Of a stretch of 25,898 nt of DNA, positions 16,130 to 25,538 are shown in pieces. The notes under the pieces are model-generated. The model saw only the letters and a program-made list of their open reading frames with translations, had not been told where the DNA came from and did not search any database. Position numbers and translations under genes: made by a program. The DNA is taken from IMG/VR virus record IMGVR_UViG_3300048928_000261, positions 1-25,898 of that record, one strand, 5' to 3'. The stretch is from a virus. Each line of letters begins with the position of its first letter. Position 1 is the first letter of the stretch.

Positions 16130-16269
16130 GACACTGCAAGATTAAAAATCTGTCAGACCCTGGTTGCCAATCGGTACGAATAAAGCTTAACAGGCGCTTT
16201 GTTTTCGCCATTGATCTGACGGCGGGAGGTATATCGTTGGCTTACCGGCAAACTGGAAGGAACAGGTTC

Positions 16270-17112
16270 ATGAAACTCGCTTTAATTGGAAACTGTCAGT
16301 TAGAAGTTTTAGGCGATTTGATAAAAAATCATGCCGCTCTTCATGAAGATAAGTTTACTTACGTATACAATACCCCTGTCTACAAGCTTGATGAAAAGAG
16401 AGACCTGGTAAATTTTTATCATGAAATTGAGCAGTGTGATGCGATTTTTATGCAGTACCATTCTGAAAGATGGAGGGGGTTTTCTACGGCAACGCTCAGC
16501 AAATATTTTGATCTGACTGTCTTGCCTACTCTGGAGTCCAGAGTTTCATGCTCCCAGCTAGGGTATTATGATTTACCTTTGCCCGACATGATGGTTTATG
16601 TAGATTACCGTTTTCTGCATCTTTATCTGAGCGGTCACGATGTCACCCATGCTGTCAAACGCTACCATCAGGCAGAGTTCTCTGAAAAGAAGCAACTGTC
16701 TATGCTTGAACAGGATGCCAAAAAATACAAAAATCTTTTCAAGCAGGGCAAAGTGTATTTTGATTATTCGGGTGATTATTTTCGCAGCCTGAGTGAAAAT
16801 ACGGGAAGCTATTCAACTATAAGTCATCCTAATAACGAAAATCTTGCTGTACTGCTGAGTGCCATATATCTTAAAACCTATAATATTACTGAAAAATTTT
16901 CTCTGCAGGGTAACGACATGTTACTCAACTACGTCGCACCGACTCTGGGTTCAGGTGATACATCTTATTTTATGATGCGTCAGAGTGGCCTTGCTCTTGC
17001 AGCTAAAATTAATTATGTTTTTTTTGAAAGCCAGGAAAAGAACAATCTTACAAGTAATTTATTGAAATCAGCGTATTATCAATCCCTCAAAGATGGCTTC
17101 ACTAATATATGA
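16270..17112 (+). CDS. WcbI-like putative polysaccharide acetyltransferase (IS passenger)
   Basis: The product (280 residues from this start) begins MKLALIGNCQLEVLGDLI. IGNCQ near the N-terminus is the signature of the WcbI family, SGNH-like CoA-binding proteins implicated in capsule polysaccharide acetylation. The later TISHPNNENLAVLLSAIYLKTYN resembles the family's conserved HP block. No signal peptide or membrane segment is seen, so it should act in the cytosol. ATG 16270 has GGAAGGA 8 bases upstream; a TTG at 16237 with GGGAGG is an alternative, adding 11 residues. It is clearly AT-richer than the flanking IS and phage genes, lies wholly inside the IS ends, and is oriented opposite to tnp genes. 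Function by homology only; altering host surface sugars is inference. Confidence 0.68.
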   Translation: MKLALIGNCQLEVLGDLIKNHAALHEDKFTYVYNTPVYKLDEKRDLVNFYHEIEQCDAIFMQYHSERWRGFSTATLSKYFDLTVLPTLESRVSCSQLGYYDLPLPDMMVYVDYRFLHLYLSGHDVTHAVKRYHQAEFSEKKQLSMLEQDAKKYKNLFKQGKVYFDYSGDYFRSLSENTGSYSTISHPNNENLAVLLSAIYLKTYNITEKFSLQGNDMLLNYVAPTLGSGDTSYFMMRQSGLALAAKINYVFFESQEKNNLTSNLLKSAYYQSLKDGFTNI

Positions 17113-17162: not shown

Positions 17163-17361
17163 TTATGCAGATGCGAGGTCGGCTTTCCAGGGCAGCAGGT
17201 CTCGTACCCTGTTTGCCGGCCAGTCCTGGATATGGCCGATGACGTAACGCAGCCACGCCTCCGGATCCACGCCGTTCAGCCGGCAGGTTCCGATCAGTGA
17301 GTACAGAACAGCAGCACGTTCTCCGCCCCTGTCTGAACCGGCAAACAGCCAGTTCTTCCGG
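17163..17361 (-). pseudogene. tnpC: C-terminal remnant of IS66 transposase TnpC
   Basis: About 66 codons read RKNWLFAGSDRGGERAAVLY, then SLIGTCRLNGVDPEAW and a stop after LPWKADLASA. This is the well-known end of the IS66 DDE transposase. Everything upstream in the gene (about 450 residues in intact relatives) is gone, and the frame is fused out of register to tnpB near 17358-17363, where GGCC is a likely deletion micro-homology. The remnant cannot be catalytic. Confidence 0.85.
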
Positions 17362-17632
17362 CCTGCGTGAGGTGCACCCTGCCGTCCCGGTTCACCGGCC
17401 AGACAAAGCGCCCCCGCTCCAGGCGTTTGGTGAACAGGCACAGGCCGTCCGCATCGGCCCAGAGGATTTTCACCATATCGCCGCGCCTGCCCCTGAAGAT
17501 AAACAGATGGCCACCAAACGGGTCTGCCCGCAGCGTGTTCTGCACCTTCGCCGCCAGCCCGTTGAAGCTGCAGCGCATGTCTGTCACGCCGGCAACCAGC
17601 CAGATGCGCGTGCCTGACGGAAAGCTAATCAT
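17294..17632 (-). pseudogene. tnpB: Truncated IS66 accessory protein TnpB
   Basis: Residues 1-90 (MISFPSGTRIWLVAGVTDMR to NRDGRVHLTQA) match IS66 TnpB (IS66 Orf2), including GGHLFIFRGRRGDMVKILWAD and LCLFTKRLERGRFVWPV. From about residue 91 the sequence is out-of-frame tnpC DNA, ending after 112 residues. The usual C-terminal ~25 residues are lost. The start overlaps the tnpA stop (ATGA), the normal coupling in this family. TnpB is required for transposition in studied IS66 members, so function is doubtful. Confidence 0.85.
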
Positions 17633-18273
17633 ATCTCACTCTCACGGAGCTCACTGACCAGCGCCCGCAGCAACTCCGGTGTCACGGGGCCGGTCAGGCT
17701 CAGGGTGCCGCCGGGCAGCGTCAGCTTACAGCTGATAACGGGGGGCGAATCCGGAACCCCACTGCTCTGCCTGACCGGAACGGGAAAGGGCTCAACCATG
17801 ACGGGTATCATCCCGGCGCGCGTGGCGGGGTCCAGCAGGCCCTGACGGTGCAGGTTGCGCCAGTTAAACACCAGGTTATCGTTGACCCCGTGCTCCCGGG
17901 CCAGCTGTGCCACACAGGCGTCCGGCTGCAGGCTCAGCTCCGCCATGTGGATTTTGAACTCCAGCGGCCAGTCCGGGCGCCGCTTTTTTACGGGCAGATT
18001 CGTTTCCAGATTGAAAGCGTAAAGCTCCTCATCAAGCCGTTCCGGCGTGTAGTCTTCGGGCAGCGGCCAGTTAATACCCGTACGGCGAAAACGCTTGAAC
18101 ATTTTATGCGTAGCGGAAGTGCTGATATTCAGTTGCTCAGCGATTTCACGGTAGGTCAGGGCGTCGTTAAACCGCAGGCTGAGTGCTGTAGTGATCCAGG
18201 GTCTGCTGATGTAAGGCGTGTTTCTGTCCACGGTAGTGTCCATGTTCGTAAAAGTGTCCATGGTAGGAAACAC
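17629..18273 (-). CDS. tnpA: IS66 accessory protein TnpA with an N-terminal HTH extension
   Basis: The C-terminal ~115 residues are IS66 TnpA-like: WPLEFKIHMAELSLQPDACV, then AQLAREHGVNDNLVFNWRNL, a helix-turn-helix of the IS3/IS66 Orf1 type, and a beta-rich end. The first ~100 residues are an added HTH (FNDALTYREIAEQLNISTSA) followed by FRRTGINWPLPEDYTPERLDEELY, which resembles the N-terminus of IS21-type IstA transposases. At 214 residues it is longer than the ~100-150 of common IS66 TnpA proteins. The start is uncertain: GTG at 18273, or ATG at 18261 or 18243. The frame is intact. Confidence 0.75.
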   Translation of the reverse strand: MFPTMDTFTNMDTTVDRNTPYISRPWITTALSLRFNDALTYREIAEQLNISTSATHKMFKRFRRTGINWPLPEDYTPERLDEELYAFNLETNLPVKKRRPDWPLEFKIHMAELSLQPDACVAQLAREHGVNDNLVFNWRNLHRQGLLDPATRAGMIPVMVEPFPVPVRQSSGVPDSPPVISCKLTLPGGTLSLTGPVTPELLRALVSELRESEI

Positions 18274-20531: not shown

Positions 20532-21797
20532 ATGTTTGCCCTCGTCGATGCCAACTCATTTTATGCGTCGTGCGAACAGGCGTTCAGGCCAGAGCTTGAC
20601 CTCGTGCCTGTAGTTGTGGCTTCGAACAATGACGGCTGCGTAATCGCCCGGTCGGCGCTTGCCAAAAAGCTGGGCATCAAAACTGGCGATCCGATCTTCA
20701 AGAATGCCGAGCTTTTTCGCCGGAACGGGGTGGTTTACTTCAGCTCGAATTATGAGTTGTACGGGGATATGAGCCACCGGCTTATGTCTACACTGGAAGA
20801 AATATGCCCGCGCGTATCGGTTTACAGCATTGACGAGGCTTTCTGCGATCTGACAGGGGTGCGTAACTGTCGTGATCTTACGGATTTCGGGCGGGAGATT
20901 AAGCAAACAGTTTACCAGCGCACGCTGCTGCATGTAGGCGTTGGTATCGCCCCCACAAAGACGCTGGCCAAACTGGCGAACCACGCAGCAAAGACATGGA
21001 AGGCTACTGGCGGTGTTGTGGATTTATCGAACGTTGACCGCCAACGGAAGCTGATGGCACTGCTGCCCTGCAACGAAGTATGGGGAATCGGGTCGCGGAT
21101 CAGCAAGAAGCTGGAGGCCATGGGAATAAAAACGGCGCTGCAGCTGGCAGATGCCGATATACGCTTTATCCGTAAACACTTCAGCGTGGTGATGGAAAGA
21201 ACGGTGCGCGAGCTGCGCGGCGAATCTTGCCTGGAGTTTGATGAGTTTCAGCCGGCGAAGCAGGAGATCTGCTGCAGCCGGTCTTTTGGTCAACGCGTCA
21301 CCGACTATACGGAAATGCGCCAGGCCATAGTGAGTTATGCCACGCGCGCGGCAGAGAAGCTACGCGGAGAACATCAGTTCTGCCGTTACGTCTCTGCCTT
21401 CGTTAAAACCTCGCCTTTTGCTCTTGATGAACCCTATTACGGCAAGCATGCCGGAACAAAGCTCCTGACCCCTACGCAGGACACACGCGACATTGTGGCC
21501 GCTGCTGTGCGTTGCCTTGATGCGGTCTGGAAAGATGGTCACCGGTACCAGAAAGGCGGGATCCTTCTGGGAGACTTTTTTAGCCAGGGCGTGGCGCAGC
21601 TAAACCTCTTTGACGACACCGCTCCAAGGGCAAACGCCACGGCGCTGATGGATATCCTGGACTCAGTGAATCAGCGGAACGGTCGGGGCACGCTGTTTTT
21701 TGCGGGGCAGGGGATCGAGAAGAAATGGCAGATGAAACGGGAGATGCTGTCGCCCCGCTGGACCACCCACCTGCAGGACGTACCAAAGGTGTTATAG
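20532..21797 (+). CDS. umuC: UmuC-like Y-family translesion DNA polymerase
   Basis: A full-length 421-residue Y-family polymerase, the catalytic subunit of a Pol V-type enzyme that copies damaged DNA at the cost of mutations. Catalytic acidic residues are visible: D6 in MFALVDANSFYASCE, and D101/E102 in VYSIDEAFCDL. The steric-gate/finger region (NNDGCVIARSALAKKLGIKTGDP) and the HhH segment near LLPCNEVWGIGSRISKKLEAMGI are intact. A beta-clamp binding motif QLNLF occurs at residues 356-360, followed by a ~60-residue tail (SPRWTTHLQDVP). It is expressed from the LexA-controlled promoter at 20188-20229 with the small upstream protein. Prophage-carried SOS mutagenesis genes are known. Confidence 0.95.
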   Translation: MFALVDANSFYASCEQAFRPELDLVPVVVASNNDGCVIARSALAKKLGIKTGDPIFKNAELFRRNGVVYFSSNYELYGDMSHRLMSTLEEICPRVSVYSIDEAFCDLTGVRNCRDLTDFGREIKQTVYQRTLLHVGVGIAPTKTLAKLANHAAKTWKATGGVVDLSNVDRQRKLMALLPCNEVWGIGSRISKKLEAMGIKTALQLADADIRFIRKHFSVVMERTVRELRGESCLEFDEFQPAKQEICCSRSFGQRVTDYTEMRQAIVSYATRAAEKLRGEHQFCRYVSAFVKTSPFALDEPYYGKHAGTKLLTPTQDTRDIVAAAVRCLDAVWKDGHRYQKGGILLGDFFSQGVAQLNLFDDTAPRANATALMDILDSVNQRNGRGTLFFAGQGIEKKWQMKREMLSPRWTTHLQDVPKVL

Positions 21798-21872: not shown

Positions 21873-21891
21873 ACGAATTTAAGGCATAAAA

Positions 21892-21915
21892 AAACCAGCC
21901 GTAAGAGGCTGGTTT
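21892..21915. terminator. Bidirectional terminator after umuC
   Basis: AAACCAGCC pairs with GGCTGGTTT around GTAAGA. The T-run is short on the + strand (TTTAATT) and strong on the minus strand (TTTTTTT). It isolates the umu operon from the accessory block. Confidence 0.7.
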
Positions 21916-21928
21916 AATTGGGGAATTT

Positions 21929-21976
21929 TGGTCGGCACGAGAGGATTTGAACCTCCGACCCCTGACACCCCATGAC
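21929..21976 (-). other. 3' fragment of proL-type tRNA-Pro(GGG), probable attachment-site relic
   Basis: On the minus strand this reads from GTCATGGGGTGTCAGGGG through GGTTCAAATCC to GTGCCGACCA, the anticodon loop (GGG) to CCA end of proL. From memory it differs from E. coli proL by one base. The 5' half of the tRNA is missing, so it is not a functional tRNA. Such 3' pieces mark tRNA-integrated elements. Its CCA end points left, towards umuC, so the matching element would lie to its right. Confidence 0.85.
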
Positions 21977-22256
21977 AGAGGCTTATATCTAAGGGCCGCT
22001 TAGTGCCAGAAGCAGAAGTTGCTGGCATCATTATGTGTTAATTAACCGGGAATAGCTCATTCATATAGTAGTGGGCGAGTTATCAAAAGTTCTCACCCAC
22101 CGGTTCCGCCAGTAGGGATTCTTGAATGCACGTGCTCTAAATCACAGTCGCGTCACTAAGACTTTTATATAAACTTAAGTCAAAAAACCGTTACCATCGT
22201 CTAATTAGTTAACTATTCTTCGCTTTGCAAATTATCAACATGATGGCTTAAAGTGT

Positions 22257-22285
22257 TTGAGTTAAGCATTTAAATTCCATACACT
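22257..22285 (+). promoter_or_regulatory. Possible promoter of the P-loop ATPase gene
   Basis: TTGAGT (22257-22262) and TACACT (22280-22285) are 17 bases apart, each matching 4 of 6 consensus bases. The predicted leader is about 60 bases. Confidence 0.35.
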
Positions 22286-22353
22286 AAAGATGTATGAAAC
22301 TCAGTCATGTTTAAGCGTAGTTTTCAAATATTGCTCTATATTAAAGGATTGTT

Positions 22354-23961
22354 ATGAAAAAAGTCATTAATATGCAATACTCATTCCCTGATGCTGAAAA
22401 TTATCGACGCAGAGAATTCAAAGAAACATTTAATAAAACATTTCTCACAGATGATTATATCGATGAACTGTTAAAACCAGAAAAATGTTTTTTAATGGGG
22501 GAGAAAGGAACAGGCAAAACCGCCTATGCAGTTTATCTTAGCAATGGTAAATATAAAAACAACGACTCTGAGCTTAGATTTATAAGAGAAACAGAATACC
22601 AAAAATTTGTATCTTTAAAAAAAGACAAGCATTTGGATTTATCAGATTATACCAATATTTGGCGGGTGATACTTTTATTACTTCTTGCTAAGCAGATAGC
22701 GACCAACGAGTCGGCGATTATACCAAGGTTTATAAAGTTTCGCTCACTAAATGCAGCAATAGACCATTATTACATGAATGCCTTTAGTCCGGAAATTATT
22801 CATGCTTTGAATTTTGTACAAGAAGCCAAAGTCGCGGCTGAAATAATGAGCGAATTTGCTAAAGCCGGCGGGGAGTCTAAAGAAAGCTTTTCTTTTACAG
22901 AAAGCAGATTTCAAACCAATTTACTTTATATACAAAAAAAATTCGAAAATGCTTTTGAAGAAATAAAATTATCAGACAATCACATATTGTTTATTGATGG
23001 TATCGACATCAGACCTCATGGGATTGATTATGAAGAATATCTTGATTGCGTTAAAGGCCTAGCCAATGCAGTTTGGCAGTTAAATAACGATTTTTTCCCT
23101 TCAATTCGCGATTCTAAAGGGAGAATGAAAGTTGTGCTTTTAATAAGGCCAGACATTTTCTCTTCAACAGGATTACAAAACCAAAACACAAAATTACGAA
23201 CTAACACAGTAATGCTTGATTGGCGAACTACATATGAAAATTATGAAAGTTCGAAGTTATATAAACTTGCAGGCAAGCTGTTACATTCGCAACAAGAACC
23301 ATCAATAGTTAAGTCGAAAACATTTGGTGAGGTATGGGAATATTATTTCCCATATCAACTTGAATCGAATAGAGAGTATAAGGATAAGGCATTCATAGGT
23401 TTCCTTAAAAACTCTTTCTATCGACCTCGCGACATCGTTATGATGCTTTTTTTCTTACAGGAAAACTGCAAGGAAAAGGAACTTTTTGATAAAGATTCAT
23501 TTACTCTTGCTGATTTTGAAAATAGTGACTTTAAAAGAAAGCTTGCGGATTATCTGCTATCTGAAATAAAGGATCAAATTTCATTTTATTACGATGAAAA
23601 AGATTATGAACTCTTCTTGAAATTTTTCGAGTATTTGAAGGGGGCTGTCTCATTTGATTATAAAAAATATTTAAAATCTTATGGAGAGTTCATGGATCAC
23701 GCGAAGGTATCTGAATATGCTGTTCCTCAGTTCATGGATACTGCAAATAAATTCCTTCAATTTTTGTATGAGTTAAACATCATATGTTTTATTGAGGATG
23801 TTGAAGAGCATAAACCAATGATTCATTGGTGCTTTAGGGAACGCAGTTTTTCTAATATAGCCCCAAAAGTTAAGACAAATGTTCGATATGAAGTTTTTTA
23901 TGGTTTGGCAAGAGCCGTTAACACTGGAAAGAAACGTATTGACAGACGTAAAATAAATTAA
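22354..23961 (+). CDS. P-loop ATPase (Sll1717/FunZ-like), candidate defence protein
   Basis: A 535-residue cytosolic protein. Walker A is GEKGTGKT at residues 49-56, preceded by the opening SFPDAENYRRREFKETFNKT. Walker B is ILFIDGID at 211-218, and VVLLIRPDIFSS downstream could carry a sensor residue. This layout resembles P-loop ATPases annotated as Sll1717 family or FunZ, which often occur alone in mobile elements and are suspected in phage defence; I name these from memory without a search. No nuclease motif is evident; the C-terminal ~200 residues are helical and rich in Phe/Tyr/Lys. The gene is AT-rich, stands alone, and lies in the accessory block, a typical place for defence cargo. AGGA lies just upstream of ATG 22354. 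Function unproven. Confidence 0.72.
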   Translation: MKKVINMQYSFPDAENYRRREFKETFNKTFLTDDYIDELLKPEKCFLMGEKGTGKTAYAVYLSNGKYKNNDSELRFIRETEYQKFVSLKKDKHLDLSDYTNIWRVILLLLLAKQIATNESAIIPRFIKFRSLNAAIDHYYMNAFSPEIIHALNFVQEAKVAAEIMSEFAKAGGESKESFSFTESRFQTNLLYIQKKFENAFEEIKLSDNHILFIDGIDIRPHGIDYEEYLDCVKGLANAVWQLNNDFFPSIRDSKGRMKVVLLIRPDIFSSTGLQNQNTKLRTNTVMLDWRTTYENYESSKLYKLAGKLLHSQQEPSIVKSKTFGEVWEYYFPYQLESNREYKDKAFIGFLKNSFYRPRDIVMMLFFLQENCKEKELFDKDSFTLADFENSDFKRKLADYLLSEIKDQISFYYDEKDYELFLKFFEYLKGAVSFDYKKYLKSYGEFMDHAKVSEYAVPQFMDTANKFLQFLYELNIICFIEDVEEHKPMIHWCFRERSFSNIAPKVKTNVRYEVFYGLARAVNTGKKRIDRRKIN

Positions 23962-23981
23962 GATGGTTTAGGTTTTCATTA

Positions 23982-24030
23982 ATGTAAAACAATGCGGTAT
24001 GTTATTAAAGGCAATTGCATTGTTTTACAT
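23982..24030. repeat. 14-bp perfect inverted repeat after the ATPase gene
   Basis: ATGTAAAACAATGC (23982-23995) and GCATTGTTTTACAT (24017-24030) can pair completely, with a 21-base loop. There is no T-run, so it is not a classic terminator. It might stabilise the mRNA end, be a protein site, or mark ends of a lost element. Confidence 0.8.
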
Positions 24031-24298
24031 GATTATGGTTCGCGATTGTCATGATGAAATTTAGATTTGCATATAAAAGTTTTAATTAAGTCGAATTACA
24101 TTCACTCCATCAAATACAAGGTGTTGTAGTTAATATTACCAATGGCCAGCTTGGCTTTTTCACCATTAATTATGGTGCTGGTTTAGCTTAGCGGTTCGAT
24201 ATTAAGCTAGCATTATTAACCAAGGAGTGCCTTTAAAAATCTGTTTTGTGATTAAACTGTAGTGGGCAACGAAATTTAACCACTTTAACAGATGTATC

Positions 24299-24317
24299 AA
24301 TGTCCGCTCTTCGCTCA
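24299..24317 (+). repeat. 19-nt direct repeat, copy 1
   Basis: AATGTCCGCTCTTCGCTCA is identical to 25270-25288. In this copy GTCCGC (24302-24307) also pairs with GCGGAC (24320-24325). The two copies enclose the membrane protein gene. Confidence 0.85.
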
Positions 24318-24425
24318 CTGCGGACCTTCAACTGAGCAAACTCGTCCGATCAGTGCCAAAATCAGACTCTCATACCCATAATAGATCACTGTTTTTTATC
24401 ATTAGCATTTATGCCGTTATCAAAA

Positions 24426-25169
24426 TTATTTAGATAAATCTTTAGGTAAATCTGAAATTGTTTTTATAGCGAACCATAACACTACCATACTCACGCATAT
24501 AAATAATATATTGAGTAATTCGAAAGTGATCCAATGATAATTAATCGGGAGTGCTAGTAACCCCAATGAACACCAAGTAGTTGAAATGACGAGGTTAAGC
24601 ATCACCATTCCAGCAGCTCTAGATAATGCGGAAAAAAGATCCCAATCTTTCTTTAACATTACTTCCGCTTGTGTTATTTCAAATTTTCTTGAACCGTTGG
24701 TGGTGCAAGAAATTATTTTTATATCATGTAAGGATTTTGAAACCCATTGCTCAGTTATCATTTTCCATGCCCCCCAAACATTAAAGATATGATAAACCTT
24801 TAGAAGATTAAATATTGGGTGGAATAATGATAGTGTTTGACCACTGAATTTGATGTCTACCATTGGTTCGCTTGCAGTGAATCTCTTTAAACAATAAAAA
24901 GGCATGTGTTTATTTTTTAGGTAATTATTAATTGATAATGAACCAACTCCATTCTTATTATTCTTTTTTATCGATACGTATGCACGACCTTCGGTACGAG
25001 TTATAAATTGTTTATCATTGAAGATTTTTTTGGCAGAAATCAAAGAGCAATTATGATAAAAAAAATTGATTTCTCTTTTTTTTCGGCTTTTCAAGGTTGC
25101 AATCAAAATCAGCAGAATATAACTTAAAGGGAAAAATAAAAATATAAAATTTAACATTATCTTCTCCAT
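24426..25169 (-). CDS. Predicted membrane protein of unknown function
   Basis: I do not recognise this 247-residue protein. It has an N-terminal hydrophobic segment (LNFIFLFFPLSYILLILIAT, residues ~6-25), a positively charged stretch (KSRKKREINFF), a ~150-residue soluble part, and two C-terminal hydrophobic segments (MVMLNLVISTTWCSLGLLAL and LLNILFICVSMVVLWFA). It is probably an inner-membrane protein with a middle domain of unknown fold. A start at the second Met (25157) is likelier, since GGAG lies 6 bases before it, giving 243 residues. The gene is AT-rich, oriented opposite to the ATPase, and enclosed by 19-nt direct repeats, suggesting a separate cassette. An effector role is conceivable but not shown. 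Confidence 0.65.
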   Translation of the reverse strand: MEKIMLNFIFLFFPLSYILLILIATLKSRKKREINFFYHNCSLISAKKIFNDKQFITRTEGRAYVSIKKNNKNGVGSLSINNYLKNKHMPFYCLKRFTASEPMVDIKFSGQTLSLFHPIFNLLKVYHIFNVWGAWKMITEQWVSKSLHDIKIISCTTNGSRKFEITQAEVMLKKDWDLFSALSRAAGMVMLNLVISTTWCSLGLLALPINYHWITFELLNILFICVSMVVLWFAIKTISDLPKDLSK

Positions 25170-25439
25170 TTCCTATTTCGCCGCGCTAATGTAACACAAA
25201 CCCTACCTTGATCATTATGAAAAAGATCTGTTAATTGAGATAGATTATAAAATTTTAAGGAAAGATGGTAATGTCCGCTCTTCGCTCATACCAGACGTTC
25301 GAAAGCATCTTTAGGGAATTGGAATTTTCGTAATATCGCTCAAGCAATCACGGTAACACTTTGAAGAAAAACACTTATAATCTCAGTAAATGTTATGAAA
25401 AATCACGCTAACCTTATGTTTTTGCATAACTACACAACT
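25170..25439. other. AT-rich leader and junction to the right attachment site
   Basis: No gene is seen. It contains the second 19-nt repeat and presumably the promoter of the minus-strand membrane protein gene. It ends at the tRNA-Leu fragment. Confidence 0.5.
25270..25288 (+). repeat. 19-nt direct repeat, copy 2
   Basis: Identical to 24299-24317, 971 bases away. The flanking hairpin partner seen at copy 1 is degenerate here. Confidence 0.85.
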
Positions 25440-25496
25440 GATTTAAAATCCCTCGGCGTTCGCGCTGTGCGGGTTCAAGTCCCGCTCCGGGTACCA
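25440..25496 (+). other. 3' fragment of leuZ-type tRNA-Leu(UAA), probable attR
   Basis: The sequence from GATTTAAAATCCCTCGG through GCGGGTTCAAGTCCCGC to GGGTACCA is the anticodon-to-CCA part of leuZ tRNA-Leu(UAA). The 5' half, with acceptor strand and D-arm, is missing and replaced by AT-rich DNA, so it is a 3' duplicate left by integration into leuZ. Orientation (CCA end towards tyrP) fits an element to the left and chromosome to the right. The intact leuZ is expected at the other end of the element, outside the window. Confidence 0.9.
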
Positions 25497-25538
25497 TGGG
25501 GAAAAAGGAGAATAATCAAAGCAATAAGCAGTGTCGTG

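Follow-up and report, generated by a model that had tools for sequence, protein, structure and literature searches.

A prophage-end gene of the Fun(Z) family that probably encodes a single-protein anti-phage ATPase

The fun gene and the cargo site at the prophage end

The window, that is, the whole 25,898-nt stretch of DNA analysed here, is a virus record that begins with structural genes, including HK022/lambda-type tail genes, and ends in chromosomal DNA. Its right-hand part carries a gene of the fun(Z) family together with the following features:

20532-21797, plus strand: umuC-like Y-family polymerase gene, with which the conserved phage body ends (Pfam IMS, 1e-39; 95-97% identical in sister prophages)
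21877-21977, minus strand: 3' fragment of tRNA-Pro with its terminator, which is what remains of an attachment core and bounds the variable cargo site on the left (phage and sister comparison)
22343-22348, plus strand: AAAGGA, a ribosome-binding-like site 5 nt before the fun ATG (read from the sequence)
22354-23961, plus strand: fun(Z)-family gene, 535 aa, ATG start (ORF listing)
23982-24030, no strand assigned: perfect 14-bp inverted repeat, a possible end-of-transcript hairpin (fold z-score -3.9)
24426-25169, minus strand: 247-aa ORF of 31% GC whose product starts with a hydrophobic N-terminal stretch, a second cargo candidate beside fun (ORF listing)
25432-25497, plus strand: leuZ (tRNA-Leu) 3' fragment, the right attachment end (matches tRNA-Leu of E. 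coli and other Enterobacteriaceae)

The fun ORF has a GC content of 33.1%, well below the values of the phage body (54.9%, positions 1-21797) and the host flank (53.4%), bearing out the AT-rich composition reported in the first-pass annotation. The same annotation credited the gene with a promoter region of its own. The intergenic DNA 5' of the ORF measures 556 nt, yet the 17 promoter-like sites found there correspond to chance level (14.8 +/- 4.0 in shuffled sequences) and lend that claim no support. An open frame as long as fun has a probability of about 1e-18 at the local base composition, and the fun homologues are full length. In the pairwise comparison with a 91%-identical copy on contig L002, pN is 0.053 and pS 0.776, with synonymous sites near saturation, and the same pattern of low pN and high pS is seen in comparisons with L008, L009 and P2. 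These values indicate strong purifying selection on the window gene and, judged by its sequence, the ORF is intact.

The tRNA-Pro core at the left border is common to phages Eeyore, Phi06_2987 and Gifsy-2, and is located between the tail end and the integrase in Eeyore. The window contains no intact tRNA. The tRNA-Pro fragment was considered as the present prophage end and ruled out by the missing tRNA 5' half and by the leuZ fragment at 25432-25497. For the same reasons the element is taken to end now at leuZ, with the tRNA-Pro piece representing a core remnant. The sequence following the leuZ fragment is host DNA found near leuZ in other enteric genomes. The fun gene is enclosed by the remnant of the attachment core and the true prophage end, with umuC and the tRNA-Pro core (to ~21977) on one side and the leuZ fragment followed by the chromosome on the other, confirming the terminal position first assigned to it.

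The 247-aa ORF yielded no significant family match and no relative among viral contigs. It is flanked by 31-nt direct repeats at 24299-24329 and 25270-25300 that are 84% identical (AATGTCCGCTCTTCGCTCA...) and 971 nt apart. Within the tail-fibre region, an ORF at 16237-17112 (plus strand, 39% GC) encodes a domain of the WcbI type for polysaccharide biosynthesis (Pfam 5.3e-10) and is possibly surface-modifying cargo. An IS66-type remnant at 17163-18273 (minus strand), consisting of TnpB_IS66 (2.3e-32) and an HTH transposase ORF, is located between the WcbI-like and tail-fibre genes.

Sister prophages were defined as fetched contigs with a umuC in the identity range given above. Those contigs extending far enough contain the tRNA-Pro core 134-135 nt past umuC and are 91-94% identical to the window through the end of the core and 26-46% identical beyond it, where their cargo differs from that of the window and is of lower GC. 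This cargo includes a NACHT protein (L113; Pfam 3.9e-10), a TIR protein (L114; TIR_2 4.3e-26, ThsB-like by PADLOC), a DUF4145 protein (L115 and L116) and proteins of 276 aa (L108) and 283 aa (L110) without a known family, while L112 has no long ORF past the core. In E. coli AR_0128, the same core is followed by an annotated HEPN protein. Collinearity up to the core followed by different cargo indicates that the site exchanges cargo, much of it defence-type, within a small sample lacking a control set. With slightly less than even confidence, we propose that, in lambda/HK-like prophages ending in umuC, the stretch past the tRNA-Pro core serves as a defence-cargo site that has so far not been recognised in these terms and in which Fun, NACHT, TIR, DUF4145 and proteins without a known family take one another's place. 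The loci assigned to it are window positions 21877-25432, L104, L108, L110 and L112-L116. An exchangeable defence-type cargo site at a prophage end is the less expected result of this analysis and points to further candidate defence genes: if the proposal is true, these would be the genes for the 283-aa protein of L110, the 276-aa protein of L108 and the 247-aa protein of the window.

Relation to P2 Fun(Z) and distribution of the family

The first-pass annotation had called for an HMM comparison of the window protein with Sll1717/FunZ-type ATPases. The NCBIfam model NF047389 (ATPase_Sll1717) matches the protein at full length (residues 12-520, 8.8e-56) with 189.9 bits against a curated cut-off of 75 bits. 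P2 Fun(Z) scores 209.3 bits with the same model, placing both proteins in one NCBIfam family. PHROGs assigns the window protein to phrog_13260 (1.7e-119), and a tblastn search against phage records aligns it with P2 Fun(Z) over residues 1-526 (98% of its length) at 53.5% identity (E=0). Identity is 52% in the C-terminal residues 401-535 and lowest, at 35%, in the lid (residues 297-400). Given this moderate overall identity and the low value in the lid, the target range of the window copy may differ from that of P2 Fun. By these sequence criteria, the 535-aa protein is a Fun(Z) homologue and a P-loop ATPase of the Sll1717 family, and its gene is a new copy within the known Fun family, not a new system. 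PADLOC models gave no good match to the window fun (best E 0.0083), the PDB contains no sequence relative of the protein and no near DNA match to the gene was found in complete E. coli genomes.

Alignments of the family and the structural model described below highlight the following elements of the coding sequence, all on the plus strand:

22498-22521: Walker A (residues 49-56, GEKGTGKT), with little or no variation in the alignments
22978-23007: Walker B region, ILFIDGIDIR, with D215 and D218 invariant in the alignments
23146-23154: invariant R265-P-D (residues 265-267), located where the strand following Walker B ends, a putative sensor-like position (alignment and model)
23422-23433: invariant R357-P-R-D (residues 357-360) in the lid, a putative sensor-2 or GxP-like position (alignment and model)
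23242-23928: second half, a predicted AAA+ lid plus winged-helix-like domain (modelled separately, pLDDT 91.5; Sso1545 Z 6.8 over 143 residues)

The Walker A and B motifs are as clear as initially described, with D215 and D218 of ILFIDGID invariant in a 39-member alignment, and both are kept, together with RPD265-267 and RPRD357-360, in bacterial and archaeal relatives. As GEKGTGK formed part of the search pattern for relatives, the fetched loci were in part bound to show an invariant Walker A, a bias that does not extend to the later motifs. Walker A is also kept in homologues found without the pattern, namely those of P2, a Lactococcus plasmid, L004 and L007. Further invariant residues in the 39-member alignment are N276, N284, W290, Y400, Y412, Q469, N475, P504 and Y512. 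The second half, in which no motif had been recognised at first, therefore contains R357-P-R-D and the last six of these residues.

Pattern searches returned 12 viral and 61 genome loci, the latter spanning many bacterial phyla and including Methanosarcina relatives. Lactococcus plasmids carry fun homologues as well (42%). A homologue on a Lactococcus lactis plasmid (L006, 3974-5548) is annotated as two adjacent ORFs and is for this reason probably broken. In a quick tree, the window copy groups with those of L002 (91%), L008 (78%) and L009 (67%) with an SH-aLRT of 100, apart from the P2 branch. The tree mixes phyla, which fits fun being a mobile gene. A full-length homologue of comparable identity is present in one of 392 Enterobacteriaceae genomes.

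The genomic contexts of the homologues vary. In two clostridial loci (L056, L057), a fun homologue is located between hsdS and hsdR of a type I restriction operon (hsdM-hsdS-fun-hsdR), and a third (L058) shows hsdM-hsdS-fun before the contig ends ahead of hsdR. In Nitrincola (L028), the genes preceding the homologue are hsdS, an Abi_2 gene and hsdR. Four P2-like contigs (L002, L008, L009 and L018) have fun directly 3' of a repressor gene, with CI domains confirmed in L002, an order suited to expression in the lysogen. An all-against-all BLASTP across the fetched loci found no neighbour in more than five loci, and no conserved chromosomal context was seen among them. The lack of a constant partner gene supports single-gene action of fun. 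PADLOC and Pfam neighbour counts at these loci are descriptive only, having no random-region control.

Predicted fold of the window protein

The AlphaFold2 model of the 535-aa protein has a mean pLDDT of 83 and a pTM of 0.83, with residues 145-183 poorly modelled. Among PDB folds, the whole model is closest to Sso1545 (2FNA, Z 12.8 over 318 residues), Cdc6/Orc1 (2QBY, Z 12.2) and ORC2 (1W5T, Z 12.1), with TnsC and NLR-type ATPases ranking next. NB-ARC/STAND proteins are also matched, with Dark at Z 11.2, RPP1 at Z 11.1 and CED-4 at Z 10.7. A search of the BFVD library gave no match below E 0.001; since P2 Fun exists and yet did not come up, this library is uninformative for the window protein. 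The model predicts an ORC/Cdc6/STAND-type AAA+ ATPase.

When the second half was modelled alone, ORC and NB-ARC winged helices scored below the Z 6.8 of Sso1545. Values of Z < 8 are unconvincing by themselves, and 6.8 is not clearly above what common arrangements would give, while the second-half values agree with the full-length result. The second half is best read, on the basis of the model, as an AAA+ lid together with a winged helix. It had earlier been suggested to be a new effector or sensing domain; its family-wide conservation and its resemblance to an ORC/Cdc6/STAND lid and winged helix lend no support to a new effector domain. ATPase, lid and winged helix account for nearly the whole protein. 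It showed no sign of a nuclease, TIR, protease or membrane part, and neither Pfam nor the fold search revealed a repeat sensor (LRR, TPR, WD40) or an effector domain. In the comparison with STAND ATPases that had been called for, the AAA+ core, lid and winged helix are found in the model, and no curated STAND, NACHT or NB-ARC model scores above its cut-off. The best STAND-type Pfam match is nSTAND3 (1.9e-4) with 21.6 bits, below the cut-off of 27.2, and no NACHT or NB-ARC model matches.

The likeness to Cdc6/Orc1 would suit a housekeeping ORC/Cdc6-like ATPase acquired by chance. Such an origin is very improbable given that the gene is rare, is carried on phages and plasmids and occurs in distant phyla and archaea with a tree that does not follow species. 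To our knowledge, bacterial replication does without ORC/Cdc6, which also counts against a housekeeping role.

As match scores are close, the fold does not decide between an ORC/Cdc6-like and an NLR-like mode of action. The main rival to the DNA-bound mechanism proposed below is a STAND/NLR-like sensor whose ligand would be a protein of the phage instead of DNA, its lid and winged helix serving as a nucleotide switch and the cell being stopped by an as yet unrecognised activity. The matches to Dark, RPP1 and CED-4 and the weak nSTAND3 hit point in this direction, as does the consideration that unrelated large phages have few common DNA features and might have a common protein. With neither sensor repeats nor an effector domain detected, we regard protein sensing as rather unlikely.

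Anti-phage role and comparison with known systems

The record of P2 states that the cloned fun(Z) gene blocks T5 growth, that it is nonessential, acts in lysogenic conversion and confers FUdR sensitivity. P2 Fun inhibits all tested Tevenvirinae, Vequintavirinae and Markadamsvirinae as well as a Felixounavirus (PMC8594841) and targets most phages with genomes above ~60 kb, its molecular basis being described as still unknown (PMC11990801). The E. coli phages of the BASEL screens are the set in which this breadth was seen. In P2-like phages, fun is the previously known defence gene of a second defence-enriched locus (PMC9519451), and a review treats it as T5 immunity (PMC8987985). The same review cites Nilsson et al. 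2004 for inverted repeats flanking P2-type fun. An exact 12-mer inverted repeat spanning the gene within 600 bp was found neither at the window fun nor, by the same test, at P2 fun.

Homology to the tested P2 gene and the defence-type cargo of sister prophages uphold the original proposal of a stand-alone Sll1717/FunZ-type P-loop ATPase acting as anti-phage cargo at a prophage end. We consider it highly probable that the window gene has an anti-phage role, and we are equally confident that it belongs, as prophage cargo, to the Fun(Z) family of anti-phage ATPases acting as single proteins. A lysogenic-conversion gene with a mainly non-defence function, for example in replication or nucleotide-pool control, and with phage exclusion as a side effect would agree with the FUdR note in the P2 record and with a fold family that takes in replication initiators. 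Such a function is improbable in view of the broad inhibition of phages by P2 Fun, the placement of fun among restriction, NACHT and TIR genes and an occurrence too patchy to fit a housekeeping role (the one in 392 Enterobacteriaceae genomes noted above).

For the anti-phage function, we tentatively favour a DNA-bound AAA+ mechanism suggested by the model, although at clearly less than even confidence. Fun would idle as a closed ORC/Cdc6/STAND-type AAA+ switch until DNA synthesis or nucleotide pools come under the control of a large phage. The triggered protein would then switch and assemble in an ATP-driven manner via its ATPase domain, with the C-terminal winged helix probably holding it on DNA, and would halt replication of phage DNA or stop the cell. 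Among events common to large phages, one in DNA synthesis or nucleotide metabolism is the likeliest trigger because P2 fun alters FUdR sensitivity, an effect that fits thymidylate or replication stress. DNA binding by Fun is inferred from fold similarity.

P2 Fun is among the broadest known single-gene barriers to large E. coli phages. A homologue in a different phage type and only 54% identical is a ready counterpart for comparing residues and target range, and the family alignment gives a short list of invariant residues.

Overall, the closest known system is P2 Fun(Z) (NP_046777.1), likewise a single gene, of 528 aa compared with 535 aa in the window, that aligns end to end, has the same motifs and NF047389 match and is carried by a temperate phage, in which it is dispensable cargo. 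The two differ in sequence (53.5% identity) and in position: the window copy branches separately, together with three copies from metagenomic phages, and is located after umuC at the prophage end, whereas P2 fun sits between tail genes G and FI. The Sll1717 family model is broader than Fun, and we know of no member with a tested function beyond P2 Fun. Sso1545-type archaeal AAA+ ATPases and ORC/Cdc6 initiators have the same order of ATPase, lid and winged helix (Z 12.8 and 12.2) but are only 12-13% identical to the window protein. STAND/NLR-like ATPases (bNACHT, Avs, NB-ARC) represent a related AAA+ subtype with a winged-helix part and differ from Fun in their sensor and effector parts, of which none was detected in Fun; one of them, the NACHT protein of L113, fills the same cargo site in a sister prophage.
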